A DNA stretch of 64,000 bases. It comes from Methanofollis ethanolicus (GTDB lineage Archaea; Halobacteriota; Methanomicrobia; Methanomicrobiales; Methanofollaceae). This document shows, in pieces, positions 7,416 to 32,185 of this stretch. The notes under the pieces are model-generated. The model was not told where the DNA came from. It did not search any database and was given only the letters and a program-made list of their open reading frames with translations. The first letter of the stretch is position 1, and each line of letters begins with the position of its first letter. The DNA lies in contig NZ_BCNW01000001.1 of NCBI RefSeq assembly GCF_001571385.1, positions 930,001 through 994,000 on the forward strand, given 5' to 3'. Both the position numbers and the translations under genes were made by a program.

Positions 7416-7803
7416 GGTTCAATCAGTTCTTTAAAGTGTATGGTGGTGAGGTGCGTTTTGAATCATGAAAAAAGATACTGATGAACTTTGATTGCTGTTT
7501 AAATCTTAAAATGGGGTCTAATATATGGTCGTTGCGTTTGTTAAATCTCTTTAACGTGTTGAACTTCAGGACACACCGTGATAAACCTTATCCCCCGGTA
7601 GAAGTCGTTGCACCGTCATGATCTCTCTCTGGTATGCCGGGACAACCCCGGGCGAGGATAGATCGAATTTATGGGATTATTTGAGAAAAATAGGGCCTGA
7701 AATCACATGGTATGGTGTCGGTGCCGTGGCCGGGAGCGCGGGGCCGCTTGCCCCTGCACTCTCCCGGGGAATGCCAGAAAAAGAGGGTTATTCCGGGGCC
7801 GAC
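7416..7803. other. Intergenic region between glnA and the dockerin protein gene
   Basis: No convincing gene. It holds the leader and promoter of the dockerin-protein gene: on the minus strand an AT-rich TATA-like element CATATATTAG near 7520-7529 and a second candidate ACTTTAAAGAAC near 7429-7440. An A-run at 7777-7785 (T-run on the minus strand) just past the glnA stop may serve as the glnA terminator. Local GC drops sharply compared with the flanking coding DNA. Confidence 0.6.
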
Positions 7804-9135
7804 TCAGTGCTGGTAGAAGTACCGGTCGATCTCCCAGGGGTGGACCGTCGTCCTGAAGGAGTCCCACTCCATCTTCGTGATCCGGTCGATGTTCTCGACG
7901 ACGTGGCGGCCGAGGACATTACAGAGCAGGTCGTCCTCCAGCAGGTACTGGTTCGCTTCGAGGAGAGTGCCCGGCAGGGTGTGGATGCCCGCCTCCTCCC
8001 TCTCGGCCTCGGTGAGTTCGAAGATGTTCAGCTTCGTACTCGCGGGCGGTTCGATCCTGTTCCTCACGCCGTCCATGCCCGCGGCGAGGATGCAGGCAAA
8101 GGTGAGGTAGGGATTGCAGGTCGGGTCAGGGCTGCGGAGTTCCATCCTGGTGGACTTGCCGCGGGGCGCCGGGACACGGCAGAGGGCCGTCCTGTTCGAG
8201 GCGCTCCAGGAGATGTAGACCGGGGCCTCGTACCCGGGCACGAGGCGCTTGTACGAGTTGATCGTCGGGTTCGCAAGCCTGGTGATGCCGCGGACGTGCT
8301 TCAGGACGCCGCCGATGAAGTGCAGGGCCGTCTCCGAGAGTTCGAGGGGTGCATAGGGATCGTAGAAGGCGTTCTGGCCGTCCTTGAAGAGGGAACAGTT
8401 GGTGTGCATGCCGCTCCCGTTGATCCCGTAGATGGGCTTCGCCATGAAGGTGGCGTGGAGGCCGCGCTGGAGGGCGATCGTCTTCGTGGCGAACTTGAAG
8501 GTAACGACATTGTCGGCGGTCTGGAGGGCGGGACCGTACTTGAAGTCGATCTCGTGCTGGCTCTCGGCCACCTCGTGGTGGGAGGCCTCGACCACGAAGC
8601 CCATCTCGGTCAGGGCGAGGACAATGTCCCGGCGCACGTCCTCCGCAAGGTCGGTGGGGGCGAGGTCGAAGTAGCCGCCGCGGTCCTGGAACTCGAGGGA
8701 CGGCCTGCCGTTGATCATCTTGAAGAGGAAAAATTCGAGTTCGGGGCCGGTGTTGAACTCGAACCCGTCCTTTGCGGCGTCGGCGATGACCTGCTTGAGG
8801 ATATACCGCGGGTCGCCCTCGAAAGGTTTCTTGTTCGGCATGTAGACGTCGCAGATGAAACGGGCCGCCCGACCCTCCCCTTCCTTCCGCCAGGGCAGGA
8901 GGGTGTAGGTCGCCGGGTCGGGCTTCAGCACCATGTCGGACTCCTCGATACGGGCGAAGCCTTCGATCGACGACCCGTCGAATGATATCCCATCGGTCAG
9001 GGCCTTCTCAGCCTGGACGGGCGGGATGGCCACGTTTTTCGGCTGGCCCAGGAGGTCGGAAAATTGCAGGCGGATGAATTTGACGTTATCCCTTTCGATT
9101 CTCTCCAGGAGTGCTGATACCTCGTCGGCTGGCAT
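7804..9135 (-). CDS. glnA: Glutamine synthetase type I (alpha subtype)
   Basis: Condenses ammonium with glutamate using ATP, cytoplasmic, dodecameric in its family. 443 residues from ATG at 9135, the usual GSI-alpha length. Visible motifs: the N-terminal beta-grasp region with FIRLQFSDLLGQPKN, the DGSSIEGFARIEESDM metal-site region, NGSGMHTN, the ATP/glutamate-binding stretch PTINSYKRLVPGYEAPVYISW, and a C-terminal NIFEL where adenylylated beta-type enzymes carry NLYDL with the modified Tyr. Adenylylation is therefore not expected. The start is set by promoter geometry: a TATA box at 9161-9168 and a GGAA-N6-TTCC operator at 9139-9152 put the transcript start within a few bases of the ATG. It diverges from the glutamate synthase operon, together forming the GS-GOGAT pathway. 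Confidence 0.96.
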   Translation of the reverse strand: MPADEVSALLERIERDNVKFIRLQFSDLLGQPKNVAIPPVQAEKALTDGISFDGSSIEGFARIEESDMVLKPDPATYTLLPWRKEGEGRAARFICDVYMPNKKPFEGDPRYILKQVIADAAKDGFEFNTGPELEFFLFKMINGRPSLEFQDRGGYFDLAPTDLAEDVRRDIVLALTEMGFVVEASHHEVAESQHEIDFKYGPALQTADNVVTFKFATKTIALQRGLHATFMAKPIYGINGSGMHTNCSLFKDGQNAFYDPYAPLELSETALHFIGGVLKHVRGITRLANPTINSYKRLVPGYEAPVYISWSASNRTALCRVPAPRGKSTRMELRSPDPTCNPYLTFACILAAGMDGVRNRIEPPASTKLNIFELTEAEREEAGIHTLPGTLLEANQYLLEDDLLCNVLGRHVVENIDRITKMEWDSFRTTVHPWEIDRYFYQH

Positions 9136-9138
9136 AAT

Positions 9139-9152
9139 GGAAACATGGTTCC
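9139..9152. promoter_or_regulatory. Predicted NrpR operator at the glnA promoter
   Basis: The 14-bp sequence GGAAACATGGTTCC is a perfect match to GGAA-N6-TTCC, the operator consensus of the archaeal nitrogen repressor NrpR. It lies between the glnA TATA box and ATG, over the expected transcription start, where bound repressor would block polymerase. An identical-class site lies at amt. Confidence 0.85.
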
Positions 9153-9159
9153 ACCCAAT

Positions 9160-9170
9160 AGTATATATGG
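9160..9170. promoter_or_regulatory. Shared bidirectional TATA element of glnA and the glutamate synthase operon
   Basis: AGTATATATGG is near-symmetric, so it can act as a TATA box both ways. On the minus strand it lies about 26 bp before the glnA start (near-leaderless). On the plus strand it would start transcription near 9190, giving the synthase operon a leader of about 45 nt with a strong ribosome binding site. Confidence 0.65.
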
Positions 9171-9234
9171 CTAATGGGTACACCATTTTGCGACAGCCGC
9201 CGCCAGAGGATACCTGACGGTGGTGGAGTAGACC

Positions 9235-10284
9235 ATGTGTGGAATTATCAGCGTCGTCGACCGCTCGGGGGCGGTGATGGACGGCGCACGGATCAGGGAC
9301 GCGCTTTCGATGATGGACGAGCGCGGCAGCGGGGAGGGTGCGGGGTATGCAGCCTACGGCGTCTACCCCGAGTTCGCCGACTGCTATGCAATCCATGTCT
9401 TCTTCGACAATATCGTGGAAACAAAAGCGCCGGTGGACGCCCTCCTCGAAACCTGGGGGACCATCGTCCATGACGAGGAGATCCCGACCTATGAGCAGGC
9501 GCACCTGAGGAAGATCCATACTCCCTGGCGCTACTTCTTCAGGCCAGACCCCACCCTCATGACCGGGACGCCGTCGCCTGAGGACGACATCGTCACCTAT
9601 CTGGTGATGAAGGTGAACACGACGATGCGGGGGGCGCTGATCTACTCGTCAGGGAAGAACATCGGGGTCTTCAAGGCCGCGGGGTGGCCGGAGGACGTCG
9701 CCGACTTCTACCGCATCCAGGACTACAAGGGCTACATCTGGCTCGCCCACAACCGGTACCCGACCAACACCCGCGGCTGGTGGGGCGGCGCCCACCCCTT
9801 CAACCTCCTGGACTGGAGCGTCGTCCACAACGGCGAGATCACAAGTTACGGCACGAACCGGCGGTACATCGAGAGTTACGGCTATAAGTGCACGATGTTC
9901 ACCGACACCGAGGTGGTCGCCTATCTCGTCGACCTTCTGGCACGGAAGCACGGCCTGGACGAAGAACTCGTGGTGCGTGCCCTCGCCCCGCCCTTCTGGG
10001 ACGAGATCGACCGCATGCCCGAAAAGGAGCGGGAACTCAACCGCGCCATCCGCCTCGCCTACGGGTCGGCGATGATGAACGGGCCCTTTGCGATCGTCGT
10101 CGCAAACCATGACGGCATCGCCGGTTTCACCGACCGGATCAAGCTGCGGCCCCTCGTCGCCGCGGAGGAGGGTGATCGGATGTACATCTCCTCCGAAGAG
10201 GCGGCGATACGGCGGATCGCCCCTGAACTGGACCGGGTGTGGATGCCGCGGGCCGGGGAACCTGTCATCGGGAGGGTCCGCTGA
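9235..10284 (+). CDS. Archaeal glutamate synthase, glutamine amidotransferase subunit (domain 1)
   Basis: 349 residues beginning MCGIISVVD, so Cys2 is the class II (Ntn) amidotransferase nucleophile after Met removal. Motifs [21 protein letters not shown] and [17 protein letters not shown] match the glutamine-binding part of GltB. It hydrolyses glutamine and passes ammonia to the FMN domain encoded by the next gene. In bacteria these domains are fused in one large subunit; here, as in many archaea, they are separate genes. The start is preceded by GGTGGTGGAG at 9219-9228. The stop overlaps the next start (TGATG), indicating translational coupling. Confidence 0.93.
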
Positions 10285-11795
10285 TGGCGATCGGGAGCGT
10301 GCCCCTGCGATACAAGATCACGATCGACCCTGACCGGTGCATGGAGTGCGGGCGGTGCATCGAGAACTGTCCGTACGGGACCTTCCGGAAGGAGGGCGAC
10401 CGTATCGTCGCCGTCTCCCGGAACTGCACCGCCTGTCACCGGTGCATCGCCATGTGCCCGCGGGACGCGATCACGCTCGTGGAGCACCCGGTGGACTACA
10501 GGTCTCACCCCCTCTGGACACCTGAGGCCAGGGAGGCGATCTACAACCAGGCGCGGACAGGCGGGATCATCCTCGCGGGCATGGGCAATGCGATGCCCCT
10601 CCCTTCGATCTTCGACCGTCTCCTCCTCGACGCCTGCCAGGTGACCAACCCCTCCATCGACCCCCTCAGGGAACCGATGGAACTGCGGACCTATCTCGGC
10701 AAGAAGCCGTCGAAGCTCGCGTTCAGGAGGACGGAGGCCGGGGACGTCGAACTGGAGACGAAGATCGCCCCGAACCTGATGATCGAGACGCCGATCATGA
10801 TCGGGCACATGAGTTACGGGGCGATCTCTCTCAACGCGCAACTCGCCCTGGCGCGGGCAGCGCACACGGCCGGGACTTTCATGGGGACAGGGGAGGGCGG
10901 GATGCACCCTGACCTCTACCCGTACCAGAAACGGTTGATCGTGCAGGTGGCCTCCGGTCGTTTCGGCGTGGACATCGACTACCTCAACAGGGGTGCGGCC
11001 ATCGAGATCAAGATCGGCCAGGGCGCGAAGCCCGGCATCGGCGGCCACCTCCCCGGCGAGAAGGTCGGCCCGGACGTCTCCCGGACCCGGATGATCCCTG
11101 AGGGGAGCGACGCGATCAGCCCGGCGCCGCACCACGACATCTACTCGATCGAAGACCTCGCTCAACTCGTCCGCTCCCTCAAGGAGGCGACAGAGTGGCA
11201 GAAACCGGTCTTCGTGAAGATCGCCGCGGTCCACAACGCCGCGGCGGTCGCGGCCGGTATAGCGCGGTCGGGTGCCGACGCCGTCGTCGTGGACGGGTTC
11301 CGCGGCGGGACGGGCGCGGCCCCGAAGGTCTTCCGGGACCACGTGGGCATCCCCATCGAGGCGGCGATCTCGGCCGTCGACCAGAAACTCCGGTCCCAGG
11401 GGATCAGGAACGAGGTCTCGGTCATCGCAAGCGGCGGCATCAGGGACGCCGCCGACGTGACGAAGGCGATCGCTCTCGGCGCCGACGCGGTCTATATCGG
11501 GACCGCGGCCCTGGTGGCAATGGGGTGCCGGGTCTGCGGCACCTGTTACCGCGGCCTCTGCCCCTGGGGGATCGCCACGCAGCGCCCCGACCTTGTCGCC
11601 CGCCTCGACCCGGTGCGGGAAGGGGAGCATGTGGCCAACCTCATCCATGCATGGACGATGGAGGTCTCCGAACTGATGGGGGCGGCGGGCATCAATGCGA
11701 TCGAGAGTCTCCGGGGCAACCGCGACCGTCTGCGGGGCTACATGCTCGACGAGGGGATGTTGCAGGTGCTGGACGTCAAGACGGTGGGGGCGTGA
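10284..11795 (+). CDS. Archaeal glutamate synthase, FMN-binding catalytic subunit with N-terminal 2x[4Fe-4S] ferredoxin domain
   Basis: 503 residues from ATG at 10284, with GGGAGG 9-13 bases upstream. Residues about 10-60 hold two ferredoxin motifs (CMECGRCIENCP and CTACHRCIAMCP). The rest is the GltB central FMN/TIM-barrel domain: MSYGAISLNAQLALARAA, GEGGMHPD, GAKPGIGGHLPGEKV, SPAPHHDIYSIEDLAQL, VVVDGFRGGTGAAP and the cluster cysteines CRVCGTCYRGLCPWGIAT. It reductively aminates 2-oxoglutarate to glutamate using ammonia from the upstream subunit. The ferredoxin domain is the electron entry, probably from the FrhB-like protein two genes downstream. Confidence 0.94.
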   Translation: MAIGSVPLRYKITIDPDRCMECGRCIENCPYGTFRKEGDRIVAVSRNCTACHRCIAMCPRDAITLVEHPVDYRSHPLWTPEAREAIYNQARTGGIILAGMGNAMPLPSIFDRLLLDACQVTNPSIDPLREPMELRTYLGKKPSKLAFRRTEAGDVELETKIAPNLMIETPIMIGHMSYGAISLNAQLALARAAHTAGTFMGTGEGGMHPDLYPYQKRLIVQVASGRFGVDIDYLNRGAAIEIKIGQGAKPGIGGHLPGEKVGPDVSRTRMIPEGSDAISPAPHHDIYSIEDLAQLVRSLKEATEWQKPVFVKIAAVHNAAAVAAGIARSGADAVVVDGFRGGTGAAPKVFRDHVGIPIEAAISAVDQKLRSQGIRNEVSVIASGGIRDAADVTKAIALGADAVYIGTAALVAMGCRVCGTCYRGLCPWGIATQRPDLVARLDPVREGEHVANLIHAWTMEVSELMGAAGINAIESLRGNRDRLRGYMLDEGMLQVLDVKTVGA

Positions 11796-21432: not shown

Positions 21433-21705
21433 ATGGCTGATTATCCGCAATTCATCGTATATACTCTCGAATGCTGTCCGCACTGCGAACTCCTGAAGGA
21501 CTATCTTACGGCACGGGGCTACCCCTTCGTCGAGGAGGACATGTCCTCAGCCGAATCCCTCACCGAACTCCGGGTGAACGGCGTCTTTGTGAACGAGGCG
21601 CCCGTTCTGCGGTGCGGTGAAGACGATTTTTACACCTCTTCCGACCTCTTCGAGAAGGGCCTTCTGCGGGAGGACGTCGTCGACCGGATTGCCGCGGGTG
21701 AGTGA
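21433..21705 (+). CDS. Glutaredoxin/NrdH-like redoxin, probable reductant of the ribonucleotide reductase
   Basis: 90 residues with a thioredoxin fold: IVYTLECCPHCELLKDYL gives a CPHC redox motif (plus an extra preceding Cys), and VNEAPVLRCGEDDFYTSSDLF holds the cis-Pro. GGGAG lies 8-12 bases upstream. Its stop overlaps the nrdD start (GTGA). Redoxin-dependent class III reductases use such proteins in place of formate, so the pairing implies it reduces NrdD or an accessory disulfide. Confidence 0.88.
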   Translation: MADYPQFIVYTLECCPHCELLKDYLTARGYPFVEEDMSSAESLTELRVNGVFVNEAPVLRCGEDDFYTSSDLFEKGLLREDVVDRIAAGE

Positions 21706-24700
21706 CGGTGGAGACGCAGAAGAGGCAGGGCTCGGGCATGCCCGGAAAGAACAGTCCCCGGTCCTCCCTGTCCCGGCAGGCGACCCTTGACGGTGTCTTC
21801 CTCCCCCCTCTCCCGAAGGTCAGGTCGTCCGAGGGCCATATCTTCGAGTGGGACAGGTCGAAGATCATCGCCCAGATCGAGAAGGAGACAAAACTGGTCG
21901 AGGACTTCTACGGCTACGGCGGGGCGACGCCCGAGCAGGCCGGGGAGATCGCAAAGGAGGTCGAGGAGAGGATCAGGAAACTGGGCCTCCGTTCCCTCTC
22001 CGGCCCCCTGATCCGCGAGATCGTGAACATGACTTTCCTGGAGAAGGGGATGGTCCAGTACAGGAACGTCTGCACACGCGTCGGCACCCCGGTCTTCGAC
22101 GCCCATCTCATCGACGTCGGCCGCGGTTTCGAGGCCCACGACAATGCGAACCTCCAGGAGAACGCCGAGACCTCGCACAAGAAGAAGGCCGACAAGATCT
22201 CCAAGGAGCAGTACCTCCTCCAGCTCCCGCCTGAACTCGCCGACCGCCACCTCGCGGGCGACCTCCATGTCCACGACCTCGAATATTTCGGTACGCGGCC
22301 CTTCTGTCTCGACGGGAGCACGGTCGTTCCTTTCCGCGTCTCCGGGCGGCACCTGACGATGCGGCTGGACGAACTGCCTCTCGACGGCGACGCATATCTC
22401 CCGGCCGACCTCGCCGCCCTCACCCCGCAGGGCTACCGGCCTGTGCAGAAGGTCACCCGGCGCCTGGTCGGGGAGGGCGAGATGCTCCGCATCCGCACGG
22501 CCACCGGCAAGACCCTCCGCGTCACGCGGGAGCACAGGATTCCTGTTCTGGCAGACGGGACGATTGCGATCACAAAGGCTGGCGAGGTGCAGGAGGGCGA
22601 CCTGCTCTATGGCCCTGACGAGACATTGTCACTCCGCGGCGAGTCCGTCGATACAGTCGACCTGGTCCGGGAACTCTCCGCATCCGTACCCCCCGAAGAC
22701 CTGGAGACAGTCTTTGTGCGGGGTGCACGCCCCATCTTTGATAAACTCTCAGAGGCCGAGGGGAGTTATACCGGGATATCCCGCGCCCTCGGCATCGAGC
22801 ACCGCAAGGAGTGGTTCACCCGCGGCACCATGCCCCTTGCGGTCTTTGTGAAACTCTGCGACCACTACGGCGTCGCCGACTACGGCGACCTGACGGTCGG
22901 CGTCGCCGGCAGCGAGCACGACCTCCCGGCCGTCCTGCCTGTCACCCCGGCCCTCTGCCGTCTCCTCGGTCTCTTTGTCTCCGAGGGGAACTACGACGTC
23001 GTGCCGGGCAGCACCTACAACCTTGCCATCACCGAGAACCACCAGTCTGAGGCGGTCGTCGCCGATGTCAGAGCGGTGCTCGGGGGCTATGCGACCCTTT
23101 CAGGCGGCACGCCCGACGTGACCGAGATCTATGGCGTCAGGGTCGAGCATGACCGGGCGATGCAGGTCTCCTTCGGCGGGAAACTCGGATGGCTCCTCTT
23201 CAGGTACGTCTTTGCCATTCCCGAGGGTGCGACGAAGAAGCGTCTGCCCTGGCTTGTCTGGCACCTGGACGACGCCCTTCTTACGGAGTTCCTCTCGGCA
23301 CTCTTCACCGGCGACGGGTCCGCGTATTACAGGCCGGAAAAGTCCGACTGCATCGTCAATTACACCACAGTCTCGGCCTCCCTGCGGCAGGAACTCTCTC
23401 TCCTCCTCTCCTCGCTTGGCATGCGTCCTCAGGTCGTCGAACTCTACGCCGACGACGACCGCACGACCCTCTACCGCCTCCAGCTTAACGGATCGGCAAA
23501 CATCAGGGCCTTTGCCACATGGGCCAGGTTCCTCGACGACAGGCAGGAGCACGTCGACCGCTTCTGTGCCGCAGTGAACCCGATCGCCCGCACGCCCCGC
23601 GGCGAGGAGGTCGTCGCCATAGGTGAGGTCGCGCCCTCGGGCGAGTATGTCTATGACCTCTTCCTGGACGGGGACGGAACGGAAGAGAGCCACACCTTCT
23701 ATGCCTCTGACGGCCTGCTCGTGCACAACTGCCAGGACTGGGACCTCCGTTACTTCTTCTATTACGGCCTGATGCCCGACGGCAACGGCACGAAGGCTTC
23801 GGTCGCCGGCCCGGCAAAGCGTGCCGAAGTCGCCGTCCTTCACGCGGTCAAGGCACTCGGGAGCGCGCAGACGAACTTTGCGGGTGGCCAGGGCTACTAC
23901 AACTTCCTCACCTTCCTCTCCCCGTACCTCGAGGGGATGGAGTACGGCGAGATGAAACAGCTGATGCAGATGTTCGTCTACGAGATGACCCAGATGATGG
24001 TCGCCCGCGGCGGACAGCTCGTCTTCTCCTCGGTGCAGCTCTCGCCGGGCGTCCCGACCCTCTGGCGGGACAAGCCCTGCGTGTACAAGGGCAAGGTCTG
24101 GGACGGCACCCAGGCGCCCCTCCGGACCTATGGCGAGTTCGAGCGCGAGGTCCGCCTCCTCTTCAAGGCGCTCATTGAGGTGATGCTGGAGGGCGACTAC
24201 TGGGGCAAACCCTTCTCCTTCCCCAAGCCCGAGATCTCCATCGAGCCCGACTTCATGGACGAGGACGAGGAGTTCAACAGGCGGCACCCCGACCTGCCCA
24301 CATACCGTGACCTCTACCTGCTCACCTTCGAACTCGCCTCCAAGTTCGGCACCCCGTACTACGACAACCAGCTCCCCCCCTACAGGGGCGCCGGGAAGGG
24401 GATCTCGTGCTACCAGTGCTGCGCCTACCAGTTCTCCTCCACCATAGAGAAGGACGATTCTTTCGAGGACAAACTCTATTTCAGGGACGCAAAACATTTC
24501 TCGATGGGTTCCTGGCAGGTCGTCTCGGTCAACTGCCCGCGGGCGGCGTACCGTGCCGAAGGTGACGACGAACGCCTCTTTGCCGAACTGAAGGCCCTCA
24601 TGGACGTCGGTGCGGAGGTCTTCCAGATCAAGAGACGGTGGATGGAGACGATCCGGACGAACGGCCGGATGCCCTTTGCGATGCAGAGGCCGAAAGACCC

Positions 24701-25343
24701 GAACACCGGCGAGAGGGGTGCGGTGGCCGTCGACCTCGACAGCCTGGTCTACACGATCGGCGTCGTCGGCGTGAACGAGATGGTCCAGCACCACACAGGC
24801 CAGCAGATCCACGAGAGCAAGAAGGCGTTCAAACTCGCCGTGCGTGCGATGACCGAGATGGAACTCCATGCCCGCGAGATCTCGGAGAAGACCGGGATGA
24901 CCCTCGCCCTGGCTCGGACGCCCGCGGAGACGACGGGCCAGCGCTTCGCGGTCGCCGACATGCTCGACGACCACTTCCGCGAGGCGGCCCTTGCGGTGAT
25001 GCAGGGCGACGTCGAGACCGCGGTGGCCGAGTGCGGGAACACCCGCGACCTTCCGGTCTACTACACGAACGGCACCCATGTCGCGCCGGGCGCAGACGTC
25101 CCCCTCACGAAGAGGATGGAGATCGAGCACGTCTTCTTCCCGATCGTCGACGGCGGCAACATCTTCCATATCTGGCTCGGCGAGGCGCGGCCCGACCCCC
25201 GCGGTCTCTATGACATGGCGATGAACCTCTGCCGGAAGACCCAGATCGGCTACTTCGCCTTCACCCGCGACCTGACCGTCTCCCTGAAGCGCTTCCGGGA
25301 GTACCACGGCGAACCGCTGACAAAGGGGAAACTGGGGGTATAA
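21702..25343 (+). CDS. nrdD: Class III (anaerobic) ribonucleotide reductase NrdD with intein; C-terminal glycyl-radical domain absent
   Basis: 1213 codons: N-extein residues 1-201, intein 202-676, C-extein 677-1213, giving a spliced product of 738 residues. GTG start overlaps the redoxin stop. Extein motifs match NrdD: LAGDLHVHDLEYFGTRPF joined to CQDWDLRYFFYYGL, GGQGYYNFLTFLSPYLEG, the CYQCCAYQF active-site cysteines, and VVSVNCPRAAYRAEGDD. It reduces ribonucleotides to deoxyribonucleotides. Oddly, the protein stops about 20 residues after YFAFTRDLTV. NrdD proteins normally continue with a four-Cys zinc site and an RVxGY glycyl-radical loop; neither is here and none is encoded before the next gene. 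It may need a separate radical-bearing subunit, use another radical source, or be a divergent paralogue. Confidence 0.9.
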   Translation: MTVETQKRQGSGMPGKNSPRSSLSRQATLDGVFLPPLPKVRSSEGHIFEWDRSKIIAQIEKETKLVEDFYGYGGATPEQAGEIAKEVEERIRKLGLRSLSGPLIREIVNMTFLEKGMVQYRNVCTRVGTPVFDAHLIDVGRGFEAHDNANLQENAETSHKKKADKISKEQYLLQLPPELADRHLAGDLHVHDLEYFGTRPFCLDGSTVVPFRVSGRHLTMRLDELPLDGDAYLPADLAALTPQGYRPVQKVTRRLVGEGEMLRIRTATGKTLRVTREHRIPVLADGTIAITKAGEVQEGDLLYGPDETLSLRGESVDTVDLVRELSASVPPEDLETVFVRGARPIFDKLSEAEGSYTGISRALGIEHRKEWFTRGTMPLAVFVKLCDHYGVADYGDLTVGVAGSEHDLPAVLPVTPALCRLLGLFVSEGNYDVVPGSTYNLAITENHQSEAVVADVRAVLGGYATLSGGTPDVTEIYGVRVEHDRAMQVSFGGKLGWLLFRYVFAIPEGATKKRLPWLVWHLDDALLTEFLSALFTGDGSAYYRPEKSDCIVNYTTVSASLRQELSLLLSSLGMRPQVVELYADDDRTTLYRLQLNGSANIRAFATWARFLDDRQEHVDRFCAAVNPIARTPRGEEVVAIGEVAPSGEYVYDLFLDGDGTEESHTFYASDGLLVHNCQDWDLRYFFYYGLMPDGNGTKASVAGPAKRAEVAVLHAVKALGSAQTNFAGGQGYYNFLTFLSPYLEGMEYGEMKQLMQMFVYEMTQMMVARGGQLVFSSVQLSPGVPTLWRDKPCVYKGKVWDGTQAPLRTYGEFEREVRLLFKALIEVMLEGDYWGKPFSFPKPEISIEPDFMDEDEEFNRRHPDLPTYRDLYLLTFELASKFGTPYYDNQLPPYRGAGKGISCYQCCAYQFSSTIEKDDSFEDKLYFRDAKHFSMGSWQVVSVNCPRAAYRAEGDDERLFAELKALMDVGAEVFQIKRRWMETIRTNGRMPFAMQRPKDPNTGERGAVAVDLDSLVYTIGVVGVNEMVQHHTGQQIHESKKAFKLAVRAMTEMELHAREISEKTGMTLALARTPAETTGQRFAVADMLDDHFREAALAVMQGDVETAVAECGNTRDLPVYYTNGTHVAPGADVPLTKRMEIEHVFFPIVDGGNIFHIWLGEARPDPRGLYDMAMNLCRKTQIGYFAFTRDLTVSLKRFREYHGEPLTKGKLGV
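22305..23729 (+). other. Intein with LAGLIDADG homing endonuclease inside nrdD
   Basis: 475 residues (202-676 of the ORF). Splice block A begins CLDGSTVVPF. Block B contains LRVTREHRIPVL with its TxxH. Two LAGLIDADG-type helices are LLGLFVSEGNYD and FLSALFTGDGSAY. The end is block F-like YVYDLFLDGDG and block G LLVHN followed by the +1 residue Cys of CQDWDLR. All splicing nucleophiles (Cys1, terminal His-Asn, Cys+1) are intact. The first LAGLIDADG helix lacks the usual acidic position pattern (VSEG), so endonuclease activity is uncertain. Confidence 0.93.
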
Positions 25344-26381: not shown

Positions 26382-26891
26382 TCATCTCCCCAGCGTGGCG
26401 ACGACATCCACGATCATCTCGTTGAACCTGACGTCGACGGTGTACCGCCCTGCCGCATAGATCGTCATGCCTCCCTTCTCGTTCCGGGCGAAAGACCCCT
26501 TCTCTCCTGCCGGCAGGCCATACCCGTTCTCCGCGACGATGTCGCCCTCGCCGTTGTAGACCCTGACGACGAACCAGGAGTCAGGCGACGGGGAGAGGCG
26601 GGATGTGTCCCCTGTCCGGGCGACCAGCCGCGGCTGCACGGTGTACGCGATCTCCATCGGCGGCGTCGTCAGGTCCACCGGGACGGTGAAAGTCCTGTTC
26701 TCGAAGTCGTCCGAGGTGTACCTGAAGACTTCGCCGGTCGCCGGCGTTGTCGGCGAGGGGAGCGTCGTCTGTGCCGGTGTCGGCACCGGTGTCTCTGCGG
26801 TGCCTCCCCCCTCCGGAGGGGCGGCCAGGACCGCGGCGAGGAGGAGCGCCCCGAAGAGGAGGGCGACGATGGTTTCTGTTCTCCTCTTCAT
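26382..26891 (-). CDS. Exported/anchored protein, last gene of the tubulin-like operon
   Basis: 169 residues. An N-terminal hydrophobic helix (about 7-24) is followed by a Pro/Thr-rich linker (about 30-55) and a beta-rich domain (FTVPVDLTTPPMEIAYTVQP ... WFVVRVYNGEGDIVAENGYG). There is no lipobox Cys, so it is a secreted protein or an N-terminally anchored one with an outward domain. It lies 7 bp after the GTPase-like gene on the minus strand. No family recognised; the fold could bind a surface ligand. Confidence 0.7.
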   Translation of the reverse strand: MKRRTETIVALLFGALLLAAVLAAPPEGGGTAETPVPTPAQTTLPSPTTPATGEVFRYTSDDFENRTFTVPVDLTTPPMEIAYTVQPRLVARTGDTSRLSPSPDSWFVVRVYNGEGDIVAENGYGLPAGEKGSFARNEKGGMTIYAAGRYTVDVRFNEMIVDVVATLGR

Positions 26892-26898
26892 GCCCCCC

Positions 26899-28287
26899 TC
26901 AGAACCCGAACCTCACGACCTCGCCCACTCTCCAGGGATAGATCTGGCGGAGGGCGTCCCTCCCCTCTCCGGGTTCCAGCATTGCGTCGACGCTGACCGC
27001 AAAGAAGGAGACCGGGACCGAGAGGGCGCGGTTATGGATCTCGTGGAAGGTGCTGACCCCGAGGAGGGACTCGTAGATCTCTCTCTCGATCCGCGCCGCC
27101 TCCTCCGAGGTGTCTTCGATGTCCTTGATGTTTGTGATCCTGTCGGTTTTTGTCACGACAAACCCGTATACCCGGTCGCCCCCGAAAAGGTCCATCAGCC
27201 GCGAGTAGTAGCCGAAGAGATGCGTCAACTCCTCCCTCCCCCGTGCATGGAAGTTGACGATCTGGTCGCCGTCGATGAGAAAAAGGATCTTCCCGGCCGT
27301 CTCCATGCGGCGGTACAGGCAGGCCTCGACGACGGCGTCCATGACACCACCGATGGCGCCGCTATGCTCCTCATTCAACCTTTTCAGGTACCGGAAACTG
27401 CCGACCCGTGCCCTGACGCTCTCTTCGTCGACCCCGGTCTCGGCGGCGACCCTGGCGACGGCCGCCGCACGGTGCGCCGGGTCGAGTGCGGCCGTGTATC
27501 GTCCGGCATAGTCGACGACCCCCGCTTCGATGGGGACAAAACCGTATTTTTTTCCGGACAGGAGGTAGAAGGCCAGGTCGTTCTCTCCTGTGGGTTTCGG
27601 GAGGCGCCCGCCTTCCAGGCCCGAGAGGAGGTCTTCGACCCGCATCTCCTCCTCGTCGGGTCCGAGTATCACCTCCTGCCGCCTGCCCGCGAACTCTCTG
27701 ACAAAGAGGCTGTACAGGGCGAGGAAGAGGAGTGTCTTCCCCGAACCGGCAGGGCCGAGGACGACGATCTCCGGGGCCCCCGCGCCCCTGACAGACCACC
27801 CGACAAGGAGGCCGAGAGCGACGAGGGTGGCGATCCCTCCGGCCGTCAGAAGGGCCCGGTCCCACGAGGCGAGGAGAAGGATGGAGACGCCGAGGGTGAC
27901 CAGGAAGAGTTTTGTGGCGAGACGGACGGCGTCGGCGAGAGTGTCGAAGCGGTTCTGGAAAAAGGAGAGGGCCGTTGCCGTCGCGCCTGCAAGCAACCCC
28001 GCGGCGACGGCCGCGGCCGCCGGCGACCCGGCGAGATATGCGGCGGCGATGGGTGCGAGGAGTGCAAGGACGATCTCACCCCCTCTTCTCGACCTCTCCT
28101 CGATCAGGAGGCCGCACGATGCCGGGATAAGAAGGCCGAGGAAGAAACCGAGGGAGTACGATACGAAGGGCGGCAGCGGTCCGGCCAGGGCCGGGGGTGC
28201 GACCAGGAACAGCGCCACAGAGAGGGCGAGGCCGACCGCGGCGATCGCCCCCTCCCTGACCACCCTGTCCCTGTACCGCACCCTCAT
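26899..28287 (-). CDS. Membrane-anchored P-loop GTPase-like protein
   Basis: 462 residues from ATG at 28287, whose ATGA overlaps the stop of the tubulin-like gene; the open frame further upstream is a shadow. Six or so hydrophobic segments fill residues 12-165. A P-loop domain then starts: Walker A LGPAGSGKT (178-185), a DxxG-like VVDYAGRY, and VTKTDRI in the position of NKxD, with FLIDGDQIVNF between. The order matches TRAFAC/Ras-like GTPases with a substituted NKxD motif, so guanine specificity is likely but not certain. It probably faces the cytoplasm and partners the tubulin-like protein. Confidence 0.8.
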   Translation of the reverse strand: MRVRYRDRVVREGAIAAVGLALSVALFLVAPPALAGPLPPFVSYSLGFFLGLLIPASCGLLIEERSRRGGEIVLALLAPIAAAYLAGSPAAAAVAAGLLAGATATALSFFQNRFDTLADAVRLATKLFLVTLGVSILLLASWDRALLTAGGIATLVALGLLVGWSVRGAGAPEIVVLGPAGSGKTLLFLALYSLFVREFAGRRQEVILGPDEEEMRVEDLLSGLEGGRLPKPTGENDLAFYLLSGKKYGFVPIEAGVVDYAGRYTAALDPAHRAAAVARVAAETGVDEESVRARVGSFRYLKRLNEEHSGAIGGVMDAVVEACLYRRMETAGKILFLIDGDQIVNFHARGREELTHLFGYYSRLMDLFGGDRVYGFVVTKTDRITNIKDIEDTSEEAARIEREIYESLLGVSTFHEIHNRALSVPVSFFAVSVDAMLEPGEGRDALRQIYPWRVGEVVRFGF

Positions 28288-31200
28288 CTGGGGAGCGCCT
28301 CCCTGATCTCCCGGATCGTGTACAGCCCCAGGACCGTGCCGGAGACATTCTCCCCTTTCTTCTCCAGGTTCGACATTTTGCCCGCGTCTTTCAGGTCCAG
28401 GACCGCCTTTCTCGTGATATACTCGCCTTCGTGCATCCTGAGGACATGGTGGAGGATGTTGTCCCTGTTCTTCTCGTAGATCTCCCAGTACCCCCCGCCG
28501 GCGATGAGGGGCGAGATGTTGTCCAGGAACCCGGCGGCGACGACGAAGGTGAGGGCGACCTCCCAGGGGCGTGCGTGGCCGTGCGTGACCAGGCGTGAGT
28601 CGTTGATGTTCCGCAGGGCGAGAGTCTCGTTGATCTCGCGGGTCATCTGGTCGCCGACCCGTGCGCTGGCGATGGTCCGCGCGATATAGTCCGAAGGCGT
28701 GGCGATCACAAGCCCCGCCTTCCCGAAGTTCCACCTCTCGGTGGCGCTGATCGGGATCATCAGGTTGTGGATGCCCAGTTTGTAGTTGTCGATGAGGTGC
28801 TTGTAGGTCGCCGTTATCTCGGCGATGAGTTTGTCCAGTTCCCGCCGCCCGTTGTCGTCCCAGTCAAGGTCGCGCAAGGAAGAGTCCTCGCGGATCAGGG
28901 AGAGGATCCGGGGGTTGATCTCCCCGAACCTCGTCATGTACATCCCTTTTTTTGTCATGGTGTCGTGGCTTTTCTGCTCGTTGACACGCACGACCGTCGA
29001 AAAGAAGACCTTGTAGTGTTTGTTGATGTCCCGGCGGTGCGGGAAGGTCCCGTCGGCCACCTCCTCGGTGCGTATCAGGGCGGTCTGGAACGCCTTCTTC
29101 GCGTCGAGGTGCCTTTTGATCTCCAGCACCTCGCCCTCCTGCCCCGAGTATTTCTCCGAAAACTGCTCCTGCACGAGGAGACCTGAGACCAGGCGTTCCC
29201 TGAGGGCCGAGCGGATCGTGCCGCGGTCGCCTGCCTCGAAGATCGCCGCAACGCCGGCGGGGTCGTCGACAGGAACATGCGCGAAGACCGCGTCGGTGAT
29301 CTTTTTCCTGAACTCGTCGGCCCGCTTCCCGAGACTCGAACTGATGAAGTCGCCGGGGAGGTACAGGTCGAAGGGGGCGTCGATCCTGAGGTTCCAGTAG
29401 CGTGCGTTCGCCTTGATGAACTCCTCGTTCTCCCTCCGGAGAGCGTCGTACTTCTTCCTTTCCCGCGCCGGTTTTTTGTTGATGAACCCGATGATCTTCG
29501 ACCCGATGCCGCCTGCGTCGATCCTCCTGACCCGCATGTCGTGGTAATAATAGAGGGCGATCGTCTCGACAAGCTCGGCGAGGCCGGAGAGGTTTTCGTC
29601 GATGTCGTGGGCGACGGCGGCGATGTCGCGCTGGACCTCGGGGACCTCCGCGGCCCGCAGCCACGTATCCCTGTCCGCGGCCTTCACTTCCCCTTTCCTG
29701 AGGGCCGTGATGCCCCTGTTGATCGCCTCTTGCAACCCTTTCTCCGGCCCTTCGACCGCCTGGACCTTTTCCTTCAGGGTGACGTACTGGTCGAGGAGGA
29801 TGTCGGTGCCCGAGAGTGTCTGGTCTGCCGACTTCTCCATGCTCTCCCGGCGGGCGTTCATCCGATCAAGGTCGCCCTGTATCTCCTGCATCCCGGCATC
29901 AAGGAGGTGGATCTCCTCCTGCACCTCTTTCCGGCGGGCGGCGAGGTCGCGGATATAGGGTGCGACCTCCTCTCTCCCTTTCAGTGTCTCCATCAGGGCG
30001 GCGTGCATCGCCTCGTCCTCGACAGCCGCGATCCTCTTGAAGATCCGCGCCGTCGTCTCCAGGGCCTGGAAGGCCTCGGGCAGGATCCTGAAGAGTTTCC
30101 TGTCGATGTCGTCCTTCAGTTCCTCCTCCTTTACCGCCTGGGCGAAGTTCTTGACCCGCGAGATAAACCCGACGAGGTCGTCGAATGTCCTGACCATGTC
30201 CAGGCGGAGTTCCGCGGGGATGTTGTTCTCGATGAAGAACTCGACGGCGATGTTGGTCTGGTAGTCGAGCAGTCTGCCGATCTCGTTCCGCCAGACCTTC
30301 TCGATGGTGCCGAACTCCTTTTTGATGTAGTCGAAGTCGCTCCGCGTCGGCGGGGCCTCCTTTGTCCGCCCGATCTCGTCGAGGAGGTCGCCGACCGCGA
30401 GGTTCAGTCTCTTCCTGCTCGCGGTGATCTCCTCCATCTCGCCGATGATCACCTCGTACTGGTCCTTGAAGGTCCTCAGTTCCTCGACCGGGTAGGTGAT
30501 GATATGTGCATCGGCGAGGATGAACGAGGAATATGGTTTTTTGGCGTCCCCGATGTTGATGTCCCCCTTTTCGAGGTGGAGGAAGTTCGTGAAGATGTAC
30601 GGGAAGACGGCGTCGAACTCGTGCACCTCCTCGCGAGCCTCCTCTCCCTTCTTGTACCCGGTCGGGCCGAGGGAGGTGAGCACGATGTAGTTGAAGAGGC
30701 GCTCTGTCTGGTTGAGGTATTCGAGTTCTGTCAGGGCGACGGCGGCGTTCAACTGCTCTTTCTCCCCCTCGACGGTGGTCGGGAGGACGACGAAGAGCCA
30801 GATCTGCGCGGTCTCGCCGCGCTGCCCCCTGATATACCGGGCGAGGTCGATGAACATCCCCGAACCCGTCCCGCCGCCGAGGCCGACGACGATGGCGGTC
30901 GTGCCCATCGTGGAGAACATCGGGAAACCGCCGGCCTGGCCCTCGTTGATCACCTTGTAGAAGATCGCCTTGGAGATCGCCCGCCGCCGGTGCACCCCGC
31001 CGCCGAAGTCGTCGGTGACGAAGGGGTCGATCGATCTGATCTCGTCGAAGTGCAGGCCCTTCTCGGAGGGGTCGTTCAGCCACCAGATCTTCGTCCCCGG
31101 CTCCGATTTGGTGGCCTTGATCTTCTCGGCGATGTCGAGGCCGGCGAGGTCGGAGACCTGGCTGATGTTTGCCAGGTTCGGGAGGTACAGGGTGTCGTAT

Positions 31201-31457
31201 TCGACGTTGCCCCGCCCGCCGAAGGACTCCACCGTGCCGAGCACCTCGTCGCGCTGCCGTTCGTCCTGGTACCTCTCGTTGGCGTCGGTGTCCATCGTGT
31301 ACACCGAAAGGTGCCTGCCGCCCAGGGAGTAGTGCTGCAGAAACCATTCCTGCCTGCAGATCTCCCCGACAAGTTTCTTCCCGCACCCCCCGAGGCCGCA
31401 GATCGTCAGGTCTGTCGGCAACTGGAGGGGCGGCCCTGAAGGTTGTGCCCCGTTCAT
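28284..31457 (-). CDS. Large tubulin/FtsZ-like GTPase
   Basis: 1057 residues. The N-terminal domain has a nucleotide-binding loop GLGGCGKKL (21-29) and the tubulin signature GGGTGSG (194-200), preceded by VVGL; GGVHRRRAISKAIFYKVINEG resembles the corresponding region of the prokaryotic Tubulin-like family. The middle (about 480-640) is strongly helical with coiled-coil character (RRKEVQEEIHLLDAGMQEIQGDLDRM), and the C-terminal third is a long alpha/beta region unlike FtsZ. At three times FtsZ length it is not the division FtsZ. Start and stop both overlap neighbours by 4 nt. Predicted role: a nucleotide-dependent polymer or switch working at the membrane with its operon partners. Confidence 0.85.
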   Translation of the reverse strand: MNGAQPSGPPLQLPTDLTICGLGGCGKKLVGEICRQEWFLQHYSLGGRHLSVYTMDTDANERYQDERQRDEVLGTVESFGGRGNVEYDTLYLPNLANISQVSDLAGLDIAEKIKATKSEPGTKIWWLNDPSEKGLHFDEIRSIDPFVTDDFGGGVHRRRAISKAIFYKVINEGQAGGFPMFSTMGTTAIVVGLGGGTGSGMFIDLARYIRGQRGETAQIWLFVVLPTTVEGEKEQLNAAVALTELEYLNQTERLFNYIVLTSLGPTGYKKGEEAREEVHEFDAVFPYIFTNFLHLEKGDINIGDAKKPYSSFILADAHIITYPVEELRTFKDQYEVIIGEMEEITASRKRLNLAVGDLLDEIGRTKEAPPTRSDFDYIKKEFGTIEKVWRNEIGRLLDYQTNIAVEFFIENNIPAELRLDMVRTFDDLVGFISRVKNFAQAVKEEELKDDIDRKLFRILPEAFQALETTARIFKRIAAVEDEAMHAALMETLKGREEVAPYIRDLAARRKEVQEEIHLLDAGMQEIQGDLDRMNARRESMEKSADQTLSGTDILLDQYVTLKEKVQAVEGPEKGLQEAINRGITALRKGEVKAADRDTWLRAAEVPEVQRDIAAVAHDIDENLSGLAELVETIALYYYHDMRVRRIDAGGIGSKIIGFINKKPARERKKYDALRRENEEFIKANARYWNLRIDAPFDLYLPGDFISSSLGKRADEFRKKITDAVFAHVPVDDPAGVAAIFEAGDRGTIRSALRERLVSGLLVQEQFSEKYSGQEGEVLEIKRHLDAKKAFQTALIRTEEVADGTFPHRRDINKHYKVFFSTVVRVNEQKSHDTMTKKGMYMTRFGEINPRILSLIREDSSLRDLDWDDNGRRELDKLIAEITATYKHLIDNYKLGIHNLMIPISATERWNFGKAGLVIATPSDYIARTIASARVGDQMTREINETLALRNINDSRLVTHGHARPWEVALTFVVAAGFLDNISPLIAGGGYWEIYEKNRDNILHHVLRMHEGEYITRKAVLDLKDAGKMSNLEKKGENVSGTVLGLYTIREIREALPR

Positions 31458-32185
31458 TCTTCATTCCCCCCTGATTCCCGTCCGCCTATCCATATCCCGG
31501 CGATCAGTGCCAGGACGGCGGTGAGGACGATCCCGCCGACCGTCCAGATGAGCGGCACCCCCGCGCCGCGTGACATTTCGTAGTCGGCGAGGGCGTTCGC
31601 CTCATTGACAAGGCCCTTCTCGAAGAGGTCCTGGAGGTACGTCCTCATGAAGGGGTCCGAGATCTGGTTCAGTTTGGCCCTGAACTCGTCCACGGCGTCG
31701 ACCGCGATGGAAAAGAGTCTGGTGTCGCTCTCCGTGAGGGGACGTCCTTTATCGTCGGTGAACCGCACCCGGTAATAGGCATACCCGCTCCTCTTCGGGT
31801 CGTAGGTGGTGAGCGTCACCGCCCCGCACTGGGTGACCGTTGTGACCGTCGGGGCCTGGCCGTGGATGCGGATGGAGAGGCCGCTTCCCCCTGCCGGCAC
31901 AGGGAGGGAGGCGGGCGTGGTGTTGGTGGCATTCCCTCCCCCTCCCGACGGCGAGAGAAGGGGCGTGTCTCCCTGTTGCACGAGGTCGGTGTCAACGATG
32001 ACCGTGTCGGCCGCGGGCGGGATCCCCGAGAGCGTGATCGTGAAGTCGACGACCTCTTCCTCCGCGACCGTGTCGGGCGGCGCTTCCTCAACGCCGACCT
32101 GCAGGCCCGCCACCCCTGCCGGTATGCAGAGCAGCGCCAGGAGAAGAAGCAGGCATGCTCCTGCGGTGTTTGCCTGTGCTGTCAT
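31454..32185 (-). CDS. Single-pass exported protein, first gene of the tubulin-like operon
   Basis: 243 residues. Signal peptide (residues 1-27, LLLLLALLCIPAGVAG), an extracytoplasmic beta domain with a Gly/Asn/Thr-rich insert (SGGGGNATNTT, possible N-glycosylation sequons), a helical region, and a C-terminal TM helix (PLIWTVGGIVLTAVLALIAGIWIGG) with a short acidic tail. This type I topology presents a sensor or adhesin domain outside. A G-run lies about 9 bases before ATG, and a TATA-like GATTTAATCC at 32232-32241 is the operon promoter. Confidence 0.75.
   Translation of the reverse strand: MTAQANTAGACLLLLLALLCIPAGVAGLQVGVEEAPPDTVAEEEVVDFTITLSGIPPAADTVIVDTDLVQQGDTPLLSPSGGGGNATNTTPASLPVPAGGSGLSIRIHGQAPTVTTVTQCGAVTLTTYDPKRSGYAYYRVRFTDDKGRPLTESDTRLFSIAVDAVDEFRAKLNQISDPFMRTYLQDLFEKGLVNEANALADYEMSRGAGVPLIWTVGGIVLTAVLALIAGIWIGGRESGGNEE

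Follow-up and report, generated by a model that had tools for sequence, protein, structure and literature searches.

A giant FtsZl1-family tubulin-like protein of Methanofollis ethanolicus is encoded with a predicted membrane GTPase and a relative of the exported CetZ-adjacent protein

How archaeal tubulin homologues that do not serve division, such as CetZ and FtsZl1, reach the membrane and affect cell shape is an open question. For CetZ1, a role in cell shape and motility as well as enrichment in extracellular vesicles have been reported (PMC10927574). We describe here four co-directional genes within a window of 64,000 nucleotides (the whole stretch of DNA analysed here) of Methanofollis ethanolicus. 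All four lie on the (-) strand: A (31454..32185, ORF of 243 aa) encodes an exported type I membrane protein, B (28284..31457, 1057 aa) a giant tubulin-like protein of the FtsZl1 family, C (26899..28287, 462 aa) a protein with six transmembrane (TM) helices and a predicted cytosolic TRAFAC-type GTPase domain, and D (26382..26891, 169 aa) an accessory exported or signal-anchored protein with its domain outside. According to the ORF coordinates, A and B overlap by 4 nt (31454-31457), as do B and C (28284-28287), and a spacer of 7 bp (26892-26898) lies between C and D; positions and junctions thus agree with those given in an earlier note on this DNA. The same note had considered the arrangement functionally undescribed. 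This is only partly right, as a 2010 study already reported that FtsZl1 operons of archaea encode GTPases associated with the membrane alongside other membrane proteins (Makarova & Koonin, PMC2875224), and the tubulin relative and its GTPase link have been known since then. An experimental study of FtsZl1 was not found in our literature search.

The tubulin-like nature of B is supported by both profile and structure comparisons. B passes the Pfam family Tubulin_2 (PF13809) with an E-value of 8e-13 (48.8 bits, cut-off 27), and against PF00091 it reaches 26.8 bits, under the cut-off of 33. With the AlphaFold2 model (pLDDT 85.6) as query, Foldseek returns CetZ2 (4b45) as top match, along with tubulin, FtsZ and TubZ, so that the structure-prediction check proposed for the protein carrying GGGTGSG yields a tubulin-like fold. 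The tubulin-like domain extends to about residue 330 and is followed by a long coiled-coil or helical region (about 324-890, with modelled helices at 324-361, 450-477, 499-549, 552-587 and 766-831) and, C-terminal to these helices, by an alpha/beta part (about 900-1057). Both motifs named earlier for B were recovered at their places on the (-) strand. In the T1-like loop GLGGCG (aa 21-26, 31380..31397), G23 and G26, together with the adjoining K27, are invariant in 31 archaeal sequences; in the T4 GTP loop GGGTGSG (aa 194-200, 30858..30878), G194-G198 and G200 are invariant and S199 occurs in at least 90% of the same 31 sequences.

On these features B is a member of the FtsZl1 family (PMC2875224), with which it shares the N-terminal FtsZ/tubulin-like GTPase domain with its GGGTG[ST]G loop, the architecture of about 1000 residues made up of N-domain, extended coiled coil and C-terminal globular domain, a neighbouring predicted membrane GTPase (C), as in archaeal FtsZl1 operons, and the additional presence of conventional FtsZ in the genome. 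PF00091 matches in the same genome comprise two genes of the FtsZ type (422 and 397 aa), a CetZ (391 aa) and one relative of 629 aa. B itself cannot be regarded as CetZ, given its 1057 residues versus about 390, its PF00091 score under the cut-off and the separate CetZ gene elsewhere in the genome. Profile comparison did not detect an FtsZ/CetZ-type C-terminal subdomain in B, and for this reason polymerisation in the manner of FtsZ is not assured, a reservation that Makarova & Koonin voiced for FtsZl1 as well (PMC2875224). B may be capable of GTP-dependent polymer formation. The strand order 913-919/954-959/966-975 in the model had suggested a complete FtsZ fold. Such a fold, whose C-terminal subdomain would be interrupted by the coiled coil, was however not adopted and is left as a hypothesis, since the score against the CetZ profile (14.6) lies below the shuffled maximum (18.9).

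The second GTPase of the operon, C, is confidently modelled by AlphaFold2 (pLDDT 86.0, pTM 0.82), with six TM helices within aa 6-165 and a domain at 174-462 that shows the strand/helix order of G domains. Foldseek matches include Nog1, eEFSec, Arl3, Arl13B and Sar1, and those with E-values up to 0.001 are GTPases. The motifs described earlier, all on the (-) strand, are present and conserved in 29 sequences: the P-loop GPAGSGKT (aa 178-185, 27733..27756; G178, G183, K184 and T185 invariant), the switch II motif VDYAG (aa 258-262, 27502..27516; D259, Y260 and G262 invariant) and the G4 motif TKTD (aa 379-382, 27142..27153; T379, K380 and D382 invariant). C thus displays the P-loop, DxxG, [NT]KxD and Ras-like fold by which TRAFAC P-loop GTPases are recognised, in line with the earlier assignment as a six-TM GTPase.

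What is new here concerns the surface partner, which is related to the protein encoded beside CetZ. A carries an N-terminal signal-like hydrophobic segment (aa 10-28) and a C-terminal TM helix (aa 210-228) with a short tail, as expected for the predicted type I exported protein; between the two, family alignments reveal a beta-rich outside domain and a membrane-proximal "KGLxxEAnxL" segment. Compared by profiles across the whole protein, family A matches the exported protein next to CetZ with an E-value of 1.6e-12. The haloarchaeal CetZ partner has a helical hairpin that matches a PEGA protein, F4, as well, and the outside domain was therefore compared separately. This domain alone still matches (E 1e-7 to 2e-6, scores 39-46 versus a shuffled maximum of 19), which rules out a helical-hairpin artefact; shuffled columns and nine other families, used as controls, all scored low against A. 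Outside-domain similarity, identical topology and an adjacent tubulin-superfamily gene place family A and the CetZ partners in one superfamily. At every one of 17 CetZ loci inspected in Methanomicrobiales, that of the same genome among them, an A homologue directly follows CetZ; about 60% of haloarchaeal genomes carry such a partner, and its gene overlaps CetZ1 at each of 30 haloarchaeal loci inspected. CetZ is nearest to B in fold, and each of the two adjoins a member of the same superfamily, but CetZ has about 390 residues without the giant coiled coil, its loci have no membrane GTPase gene, and its partner follows the tubulin gene, whereas A precedes B. In most CetZ partners, moreover, the cytoplasmic tail is conserved and finishes with WDELG or YDKLG; A lacks this tail, so that it would have to contact its tubulin-like protein differently.

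In a survey of 57 loci, A is present in 51 and C in 50. Almost every archaeal locus with enough sequence has A-B-C in co-linear order, with a 4-nt overlap or near-contact at the A-B and B-C junctions in most of 48 listed loci, a recurrence far above chance. When 147 genomes from across the phylum were compared, strong matches to A and C were confined to 11, and exactly these 11 have a full-length methanogen-type B; distances for the three proteins A, B and C are correlated (r 0.90-0.95). The core is constant across orders, and variable effector genes were not seen. The operon is patchy, with some Methanofollis lacking A-B-C, and the system is dispensable. D, which has one N-terminal hydrophobic segment (aa 7-25), does not belong to the core: it occurs in only 5 of 57 loci (in L052, as here, at the operon end, A-B-C-F3-D), and of 100 Methanomicrobiales genomes 57 encode D-like exported proteins, in many cases without having A-B-C. 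The four-part unit proposed earlier therefore holds for A-B-C, and the core consists of three genes, not four. In most relatives C is followed by a further membrane protein, F3, which was not found anywhere in six Methanofollis genomes with a type-1 operon, while six positive-control genomes gave matches; its relocation elsewhere in the M. ethanolicus genome is rejected accordingly. Compared to the FtsZl1 operons as reported, the present analysis defines A-B-C as the core (joined by F3 in most relatives), connects A with the CetZ partner and recognises D as an addition. The labels A and F3 are those of this analysis and are not equated by name with families A1/A2 of Makarova & Koonin (PMC2875224).

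We propose, with chances that we judge to be about even, that A-B-C shapes the envelope as a tubulin-like scaffold coupled to the surface and switched by a GTPase. B would bind GTP and assemble, or shift its assembly state, beneath the cytoplasmic membrane; A would cross the membrane once and tether B to the cell surface, as its relatives beside CetZ are proposed to tether CetZ; and C, with six TM helices and a TRAFAC GTPase head, would be the membrane switch that recruits B or governs its assembly. As the output, membrane and envelope would be organised or remodelled locally; the two separate FtsZ-type genes in the genome argue against division as the process served. D would be an outside protein with an accessory role in the Methanofollis lineage. 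Contacts between A and B and between B and C, and likewise the direction of signalling, are assumed in this scheme, and the "stoichiometric machine" and "outside sensor" of the earlier note are conceivable in the same sense.

An unlikely alternative is a polymer-free complex for signalling or transport control, in which A (elsewhere also F3/F4) senses the outside, C acts as G-protein and B serves as a GTPase scaffold that forms no filaments and relays the state to targets. Such a role, put forward by a reviewer in 2010 (PMC2875224), would fit the unrecognisable FtsZ polymerisation subdomain in the C-terminal part of B and the several outside domains (A, the F3 tail, the F4 PEGA repeats) around one GTPase. 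It is at odds with the finding that every characterised member of the superfamily forms filaments (Makarova & Koonin, PMC2875224), with CetZ being the closest fold to B, and with the location of A's relatives beside CetZ, a cytoskeletal protein.

Quite improbable is a biological-conflict (defence or self/non-self) system with C as threshold switch and B as polymerising effector. In Firmicutes and Actinobacteria, DO-GTPases are paired with tubulin-domain proteins (Kaur et al. 2020, PMC7159879), and these systems resemble the operon in combining a TRAFAC GTPase, a tubulin domain fused to a coiled-coil/helical region and membrane components. Weak DO-GTPase2 (PF19993) matches in 12 of 12 C-family members scanned (best 1.7e-5), the Geoglobus C aligning across the entire domain (E 5e-4), and the patchy distribution point the same way. 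C itself, however, scores 19.1 bits, under the gathering threshold of 27, and at E 1e-3 DO-GTPase2 had no match in the M. ethanolicus genome or six others. A Pfam scan of A, D, F3 and F4 gave no GAP1 domain, which also disposes of F3 as the GAP1 of such systems. The partners are constant, not variable, and the window neighbours look ordinary. PADLOC gave no match below E 0.01 and a search for viral relatives found none, so that the defence reading is not favoured. No more probable is a platform that assembles or secretes a surface structure (an S-layer patch, or a pilus-like or PEGA-decorated one), with B setting its position, as proposed for CetZ with type IV pili: the F4 PEGA repeats outside the membrane in Methanomicrobiaceae operons, the outside location of D, A and the F3 tails and the type IV pilus regulons adjoining some CetZ genes (PMC9856176) would suit it, but the locus survey showed neither a secretion ATPase or pilin gene nor any other constant gene for a surface structure conserved beside the core.

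Returning to the surface-coupled scaffold, the kinship of A with the CetZ-adjacent protein makes the pairing of tubulin and surface partner testable. In archaea, SepF anchors FtsZ, another tubulin-superfamily protein, to the membrane; this small protein reaches the membrane by a targeting helix and lacks an outside domain, whereas family A proteins are single-pass and have one. Somewhat more tentatively than for the scaffold itself, we suggest that single-pass exported A/CetZ-partner proteins may form a general archaeal family of trans-envelope linkers that join the CetZ and FtsZl1 branches to the cell surface, with CetZ bound via the WDELG/YDKLG tail and the six-TM GTPase switch added in the FtsZl1 branch. 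A conserved exported partner directly beside both kinds of tubulin, with a short conserved tail on the CetZ side, is a named candidate for deletion, tagging and binding tests in haloarchaeal model strains carrying it and in Methanosarcina, and FtsZl1, predicted in 2010, gains a concrete minimal complex, A-B-C, for reconstitution.

Some minor observations concern the neighbourhood. The vWA, OmpA and Ser/Thr kinase domains of bacterial-type FtsZl1 operons were not found by Pfam in A, C, D or the scanned F3/F4 proteins; such neighbours are not a defining feature of the FtsZl1 protein family itself. The main junction outliers among the 48 loci are due to broken reading frames (L071, L077, L079) or to an alternative start that lengthens the C ORF (the window and L028). 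By inspection, the genes around the operon within the window resemble ordinary metabolic and transport genes.

Re-reading the sequence bore out the four ORFs, the gene overlaps and the motifs that the earlier note had described for the operon at 26382-32185 (minus strand). The window covers G000:C1:930001-994000 in the genome of a Methanofollis-type methanogen. It encodes an exported type I membrane protein (A), a 1057-residue tubulin-like protein (B), a six-TM GTPase (C) and an accessory exported protein (D). Topology prediction places a signal-like segment at residues 10-28 and a single TM helix at 210-228 of A, and one N-terminal segment at 7-25 of D.

The proposed tubulin kinship of B was upheld by Pfam Tubulin_2, whose cut-off of 27 is exceeded with 48.8 bits (E 8e-13), while the score with the ordinary Tubulin/FtsZ model lies under the cut-off. 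An AlphaFold2 model, built with an alignment of 31 archaeal homologues (mean pLDDT 85.6, pTM 0.66), opens with an alpha/beta domain at the N terminus, runs on through a long helical/coiled-coil stretch and ends in a second, C-terminal alpha/beta part. Its tubulin-like fold, anticipated from the GGGTGSG motif, is reflected in the Foldseek matches to the PDB, which are headed by CetZ2 of Haloferax volcanii (4b45; E 1.7e-4, probability 1.00, TM-score by target 0.47), with tubulins, FtsZ and TubZ among those below. B, including its architecture, is thus an FtsZl1 protein, a family discovered in archaea and bacteria by Makarova & Koonin in 2010, who proposed a role in membrane remodelling and found the associated GTPases to be membrane-associated in archaea, but not in bacteria (PMC2875224). 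The literature searched yielded no experimental study of FtsZl1. The strand order of the model raises the possibility that the FtsZ activation subdomain corresponds to the C-terminal part, set apart by the giant coiled coil; a profile test of this assignment was negative.

C is a six-TM TRAFAC GTPase. In its model (pLDDT 86.0, pTM 0.82) six TM helices precede a Ras-like G domain, and the P-loop, DYAG and TKTD residues are invariant in an alignment of 29 sequences. In a Foldseek comparison with the PDB, matches at E 0.001 or better are to TRAFAC GTPases (Nog1, eEFSec), and others including Arl3, Arl13B and Sar1 rank below them. Pfam DO-GTPase2 is touched weakly by all 12 C-family members tested (best 1.7e-5), and the Geoglobus protein covers the whole domain (E 5e-4); in none of seven whole genomes was E 1e-3 reached. 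C is therefore similar to the GTPases that Kaur et al. 2020 (PMC7159879) described in tubulin-containing systems, but does not qualify as a member.

A neighbourhood survey of 57 archaeal loci with B supported only part of the suggested four-gene co-conservation: A (51/57) and C (50/57) keep together with B in fixed order, mostly with 4-nt overlaps, but the genes after C vary. Several loci lacking A or C are cut contigs or halophile operons. The survey spans Methanofollis, Methanogenium, Methanoculleus, Methanomicrobium, Methanosarcina, Methanolobus, Methanosalsum and ANME-2, with A-B-C also in Geoglobus and A-B on a short Syntrophoarchaeum contig. Among 147 genomes from across the phylum, the 11 with strong matches to both A and C are the same 11 that hold a full-length methanogen-type B; four more with B have weak C matches directly adjoining it. 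Outside the B genomes we found only one marginal C match (G116) and three weak A matches, traced to CetZ. The three proteins have pairwise distances that correlate with one another at 0.90-0.95. The B tree splits into two clades, one of Methanofollis plus Methanosarcinales and the other of Methanomicrobiaceae; one Methanofollis genome, G007, holds members of both. At locus L130 (G109; 5504-10593) C is split: after A-B come a membrane gene of 178 aa and, as a gene of its own, a soluble GTPase of 317 aa. The unit is A-B-C.

Elsewhere the usual gene after C is F3 (39 loci), with a cytoplasmic N-domain, one TM helix and an outside tail; Methanomicrobiaceae additionally have F4 (23 loci), with PEGA repeats and a TM helix. 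D takes the place of F3 in the window operon. A search of six Methanofollis genomes with the type-1 operon did not find F3, while positive-control genomes gave matches. One locus (L052) reads A-B-C-F3-D. Exported proteins resembling D turn up in 57 of 100 Methanomicrobiales genomes; D is thus one of a wider family of small exported proteins of this order without known domain, which includes G000:C1:1506411-1506848 in the same genome. Besides its window-type operon, G007 carries a second one, A-B-C-F3-F4 (L044, 7771-11028 and 16071-19361), which closes with another, diverged FtsZl1 gene, giving two giant tubulins in one operon. A contig labelled Bacteroidota (L065), with an A-B-C-F3-F4 operon near-identical to that of Methanoculleus L069, is very probably a mis-binned methanogen contig. 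At three halophile loci (L082, L083, L084) B is followed by two C-like membrane-protein genes, one without recognisable P-loop, a pairing that recalls 'double GTPase' systems; L082 has an F3-like gene in addition.

Since all three ORFs with weak A matches directly adjoin a CetZ gene, we followed up the exported protein encoded there. This CetZ partner occurs in 60 of 96 haloarchaeal genomes, its gene overlapping the CetZ1 3' end in 30/30 selected loci; in sampled match-less haloarchaeal genomes of three families no partner was found behind CetZ1. In Methanomicrobiales, an exported type I protein gene lies 3' of CetZ at all 17 loci examined, ending in WDELG (16/17) or YDELF (1/17); the haloarchaeal tail is usually YDKLG. 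At L200 the partner is visible only as a longer ORF. One of the 17 loci is that of the window's own genome, where CetZ (L197 3270-4445, minus strand) overlaps its WDELG-ending type I partner (L197 2146-3273, minus strand) by 4 nt, the pair lying at about G000:C1 2345645-2347944. When the profiles of A and the haloarchaeal partner were compared at full length, E was 1.6e-12, and E 1e-8 to 1e-6 was obtained with CetZ partners after removal of signal and TM. The haloarchaeal partner has a helical hairpin that matches the unrelated F4 as well, so we rely on the outside domain only. This domain of A matches that of the haloarchaeal partner at E 1e-7 to 6e-7 and that of the methanogen partner at E 5e-7 to 2e-6; the scores are 39-46, and shuffled profiles reach 19 at most. 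A is homologous to the CetZ partner, a gene that the consulted sections of the CetZ neighbourhood paper (PMC9856176) do not mention.

Gene order, conservation, predicted folds, topology and this homology are observed; binding, polymerisation, the direction of signalling and the process served we infer. Most likely, A would link B with the cell outside and C would act on B as a membrane switch, the outcome being a locally organised envelope. Division is an unlikely role, given that two FtsZ-type genes are present in the genome besides B. Alternatively, the proteins could form a signalling complex that works without polymerisation, or a platform for a surface structure. A biological-conflict system is weakened as an explanation by the lack of a convincing PADLOC match, of viral relatives, of GAP1 among the operon partners scanned and of variable effectors at the surveyed loci.

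The genome further encodes a 627-aa CetZ-like protein (L217 4299-6182, about G000:C1 623298-625181, minus strand) with a degenerate GTP loop, GLGGTMID in place of GGGTGSG, and a long charged C-terminal tail; this tubulin-superfamily member is probably unable to bind GTP normally. In the window, a 1213-aa ORF at 21702-25343 (plus strand) resembles, on visual inspection, an anaerobic ribonucleotide reductase with an intein-like insert from about CLDGSTVVPF to LLVHNC.
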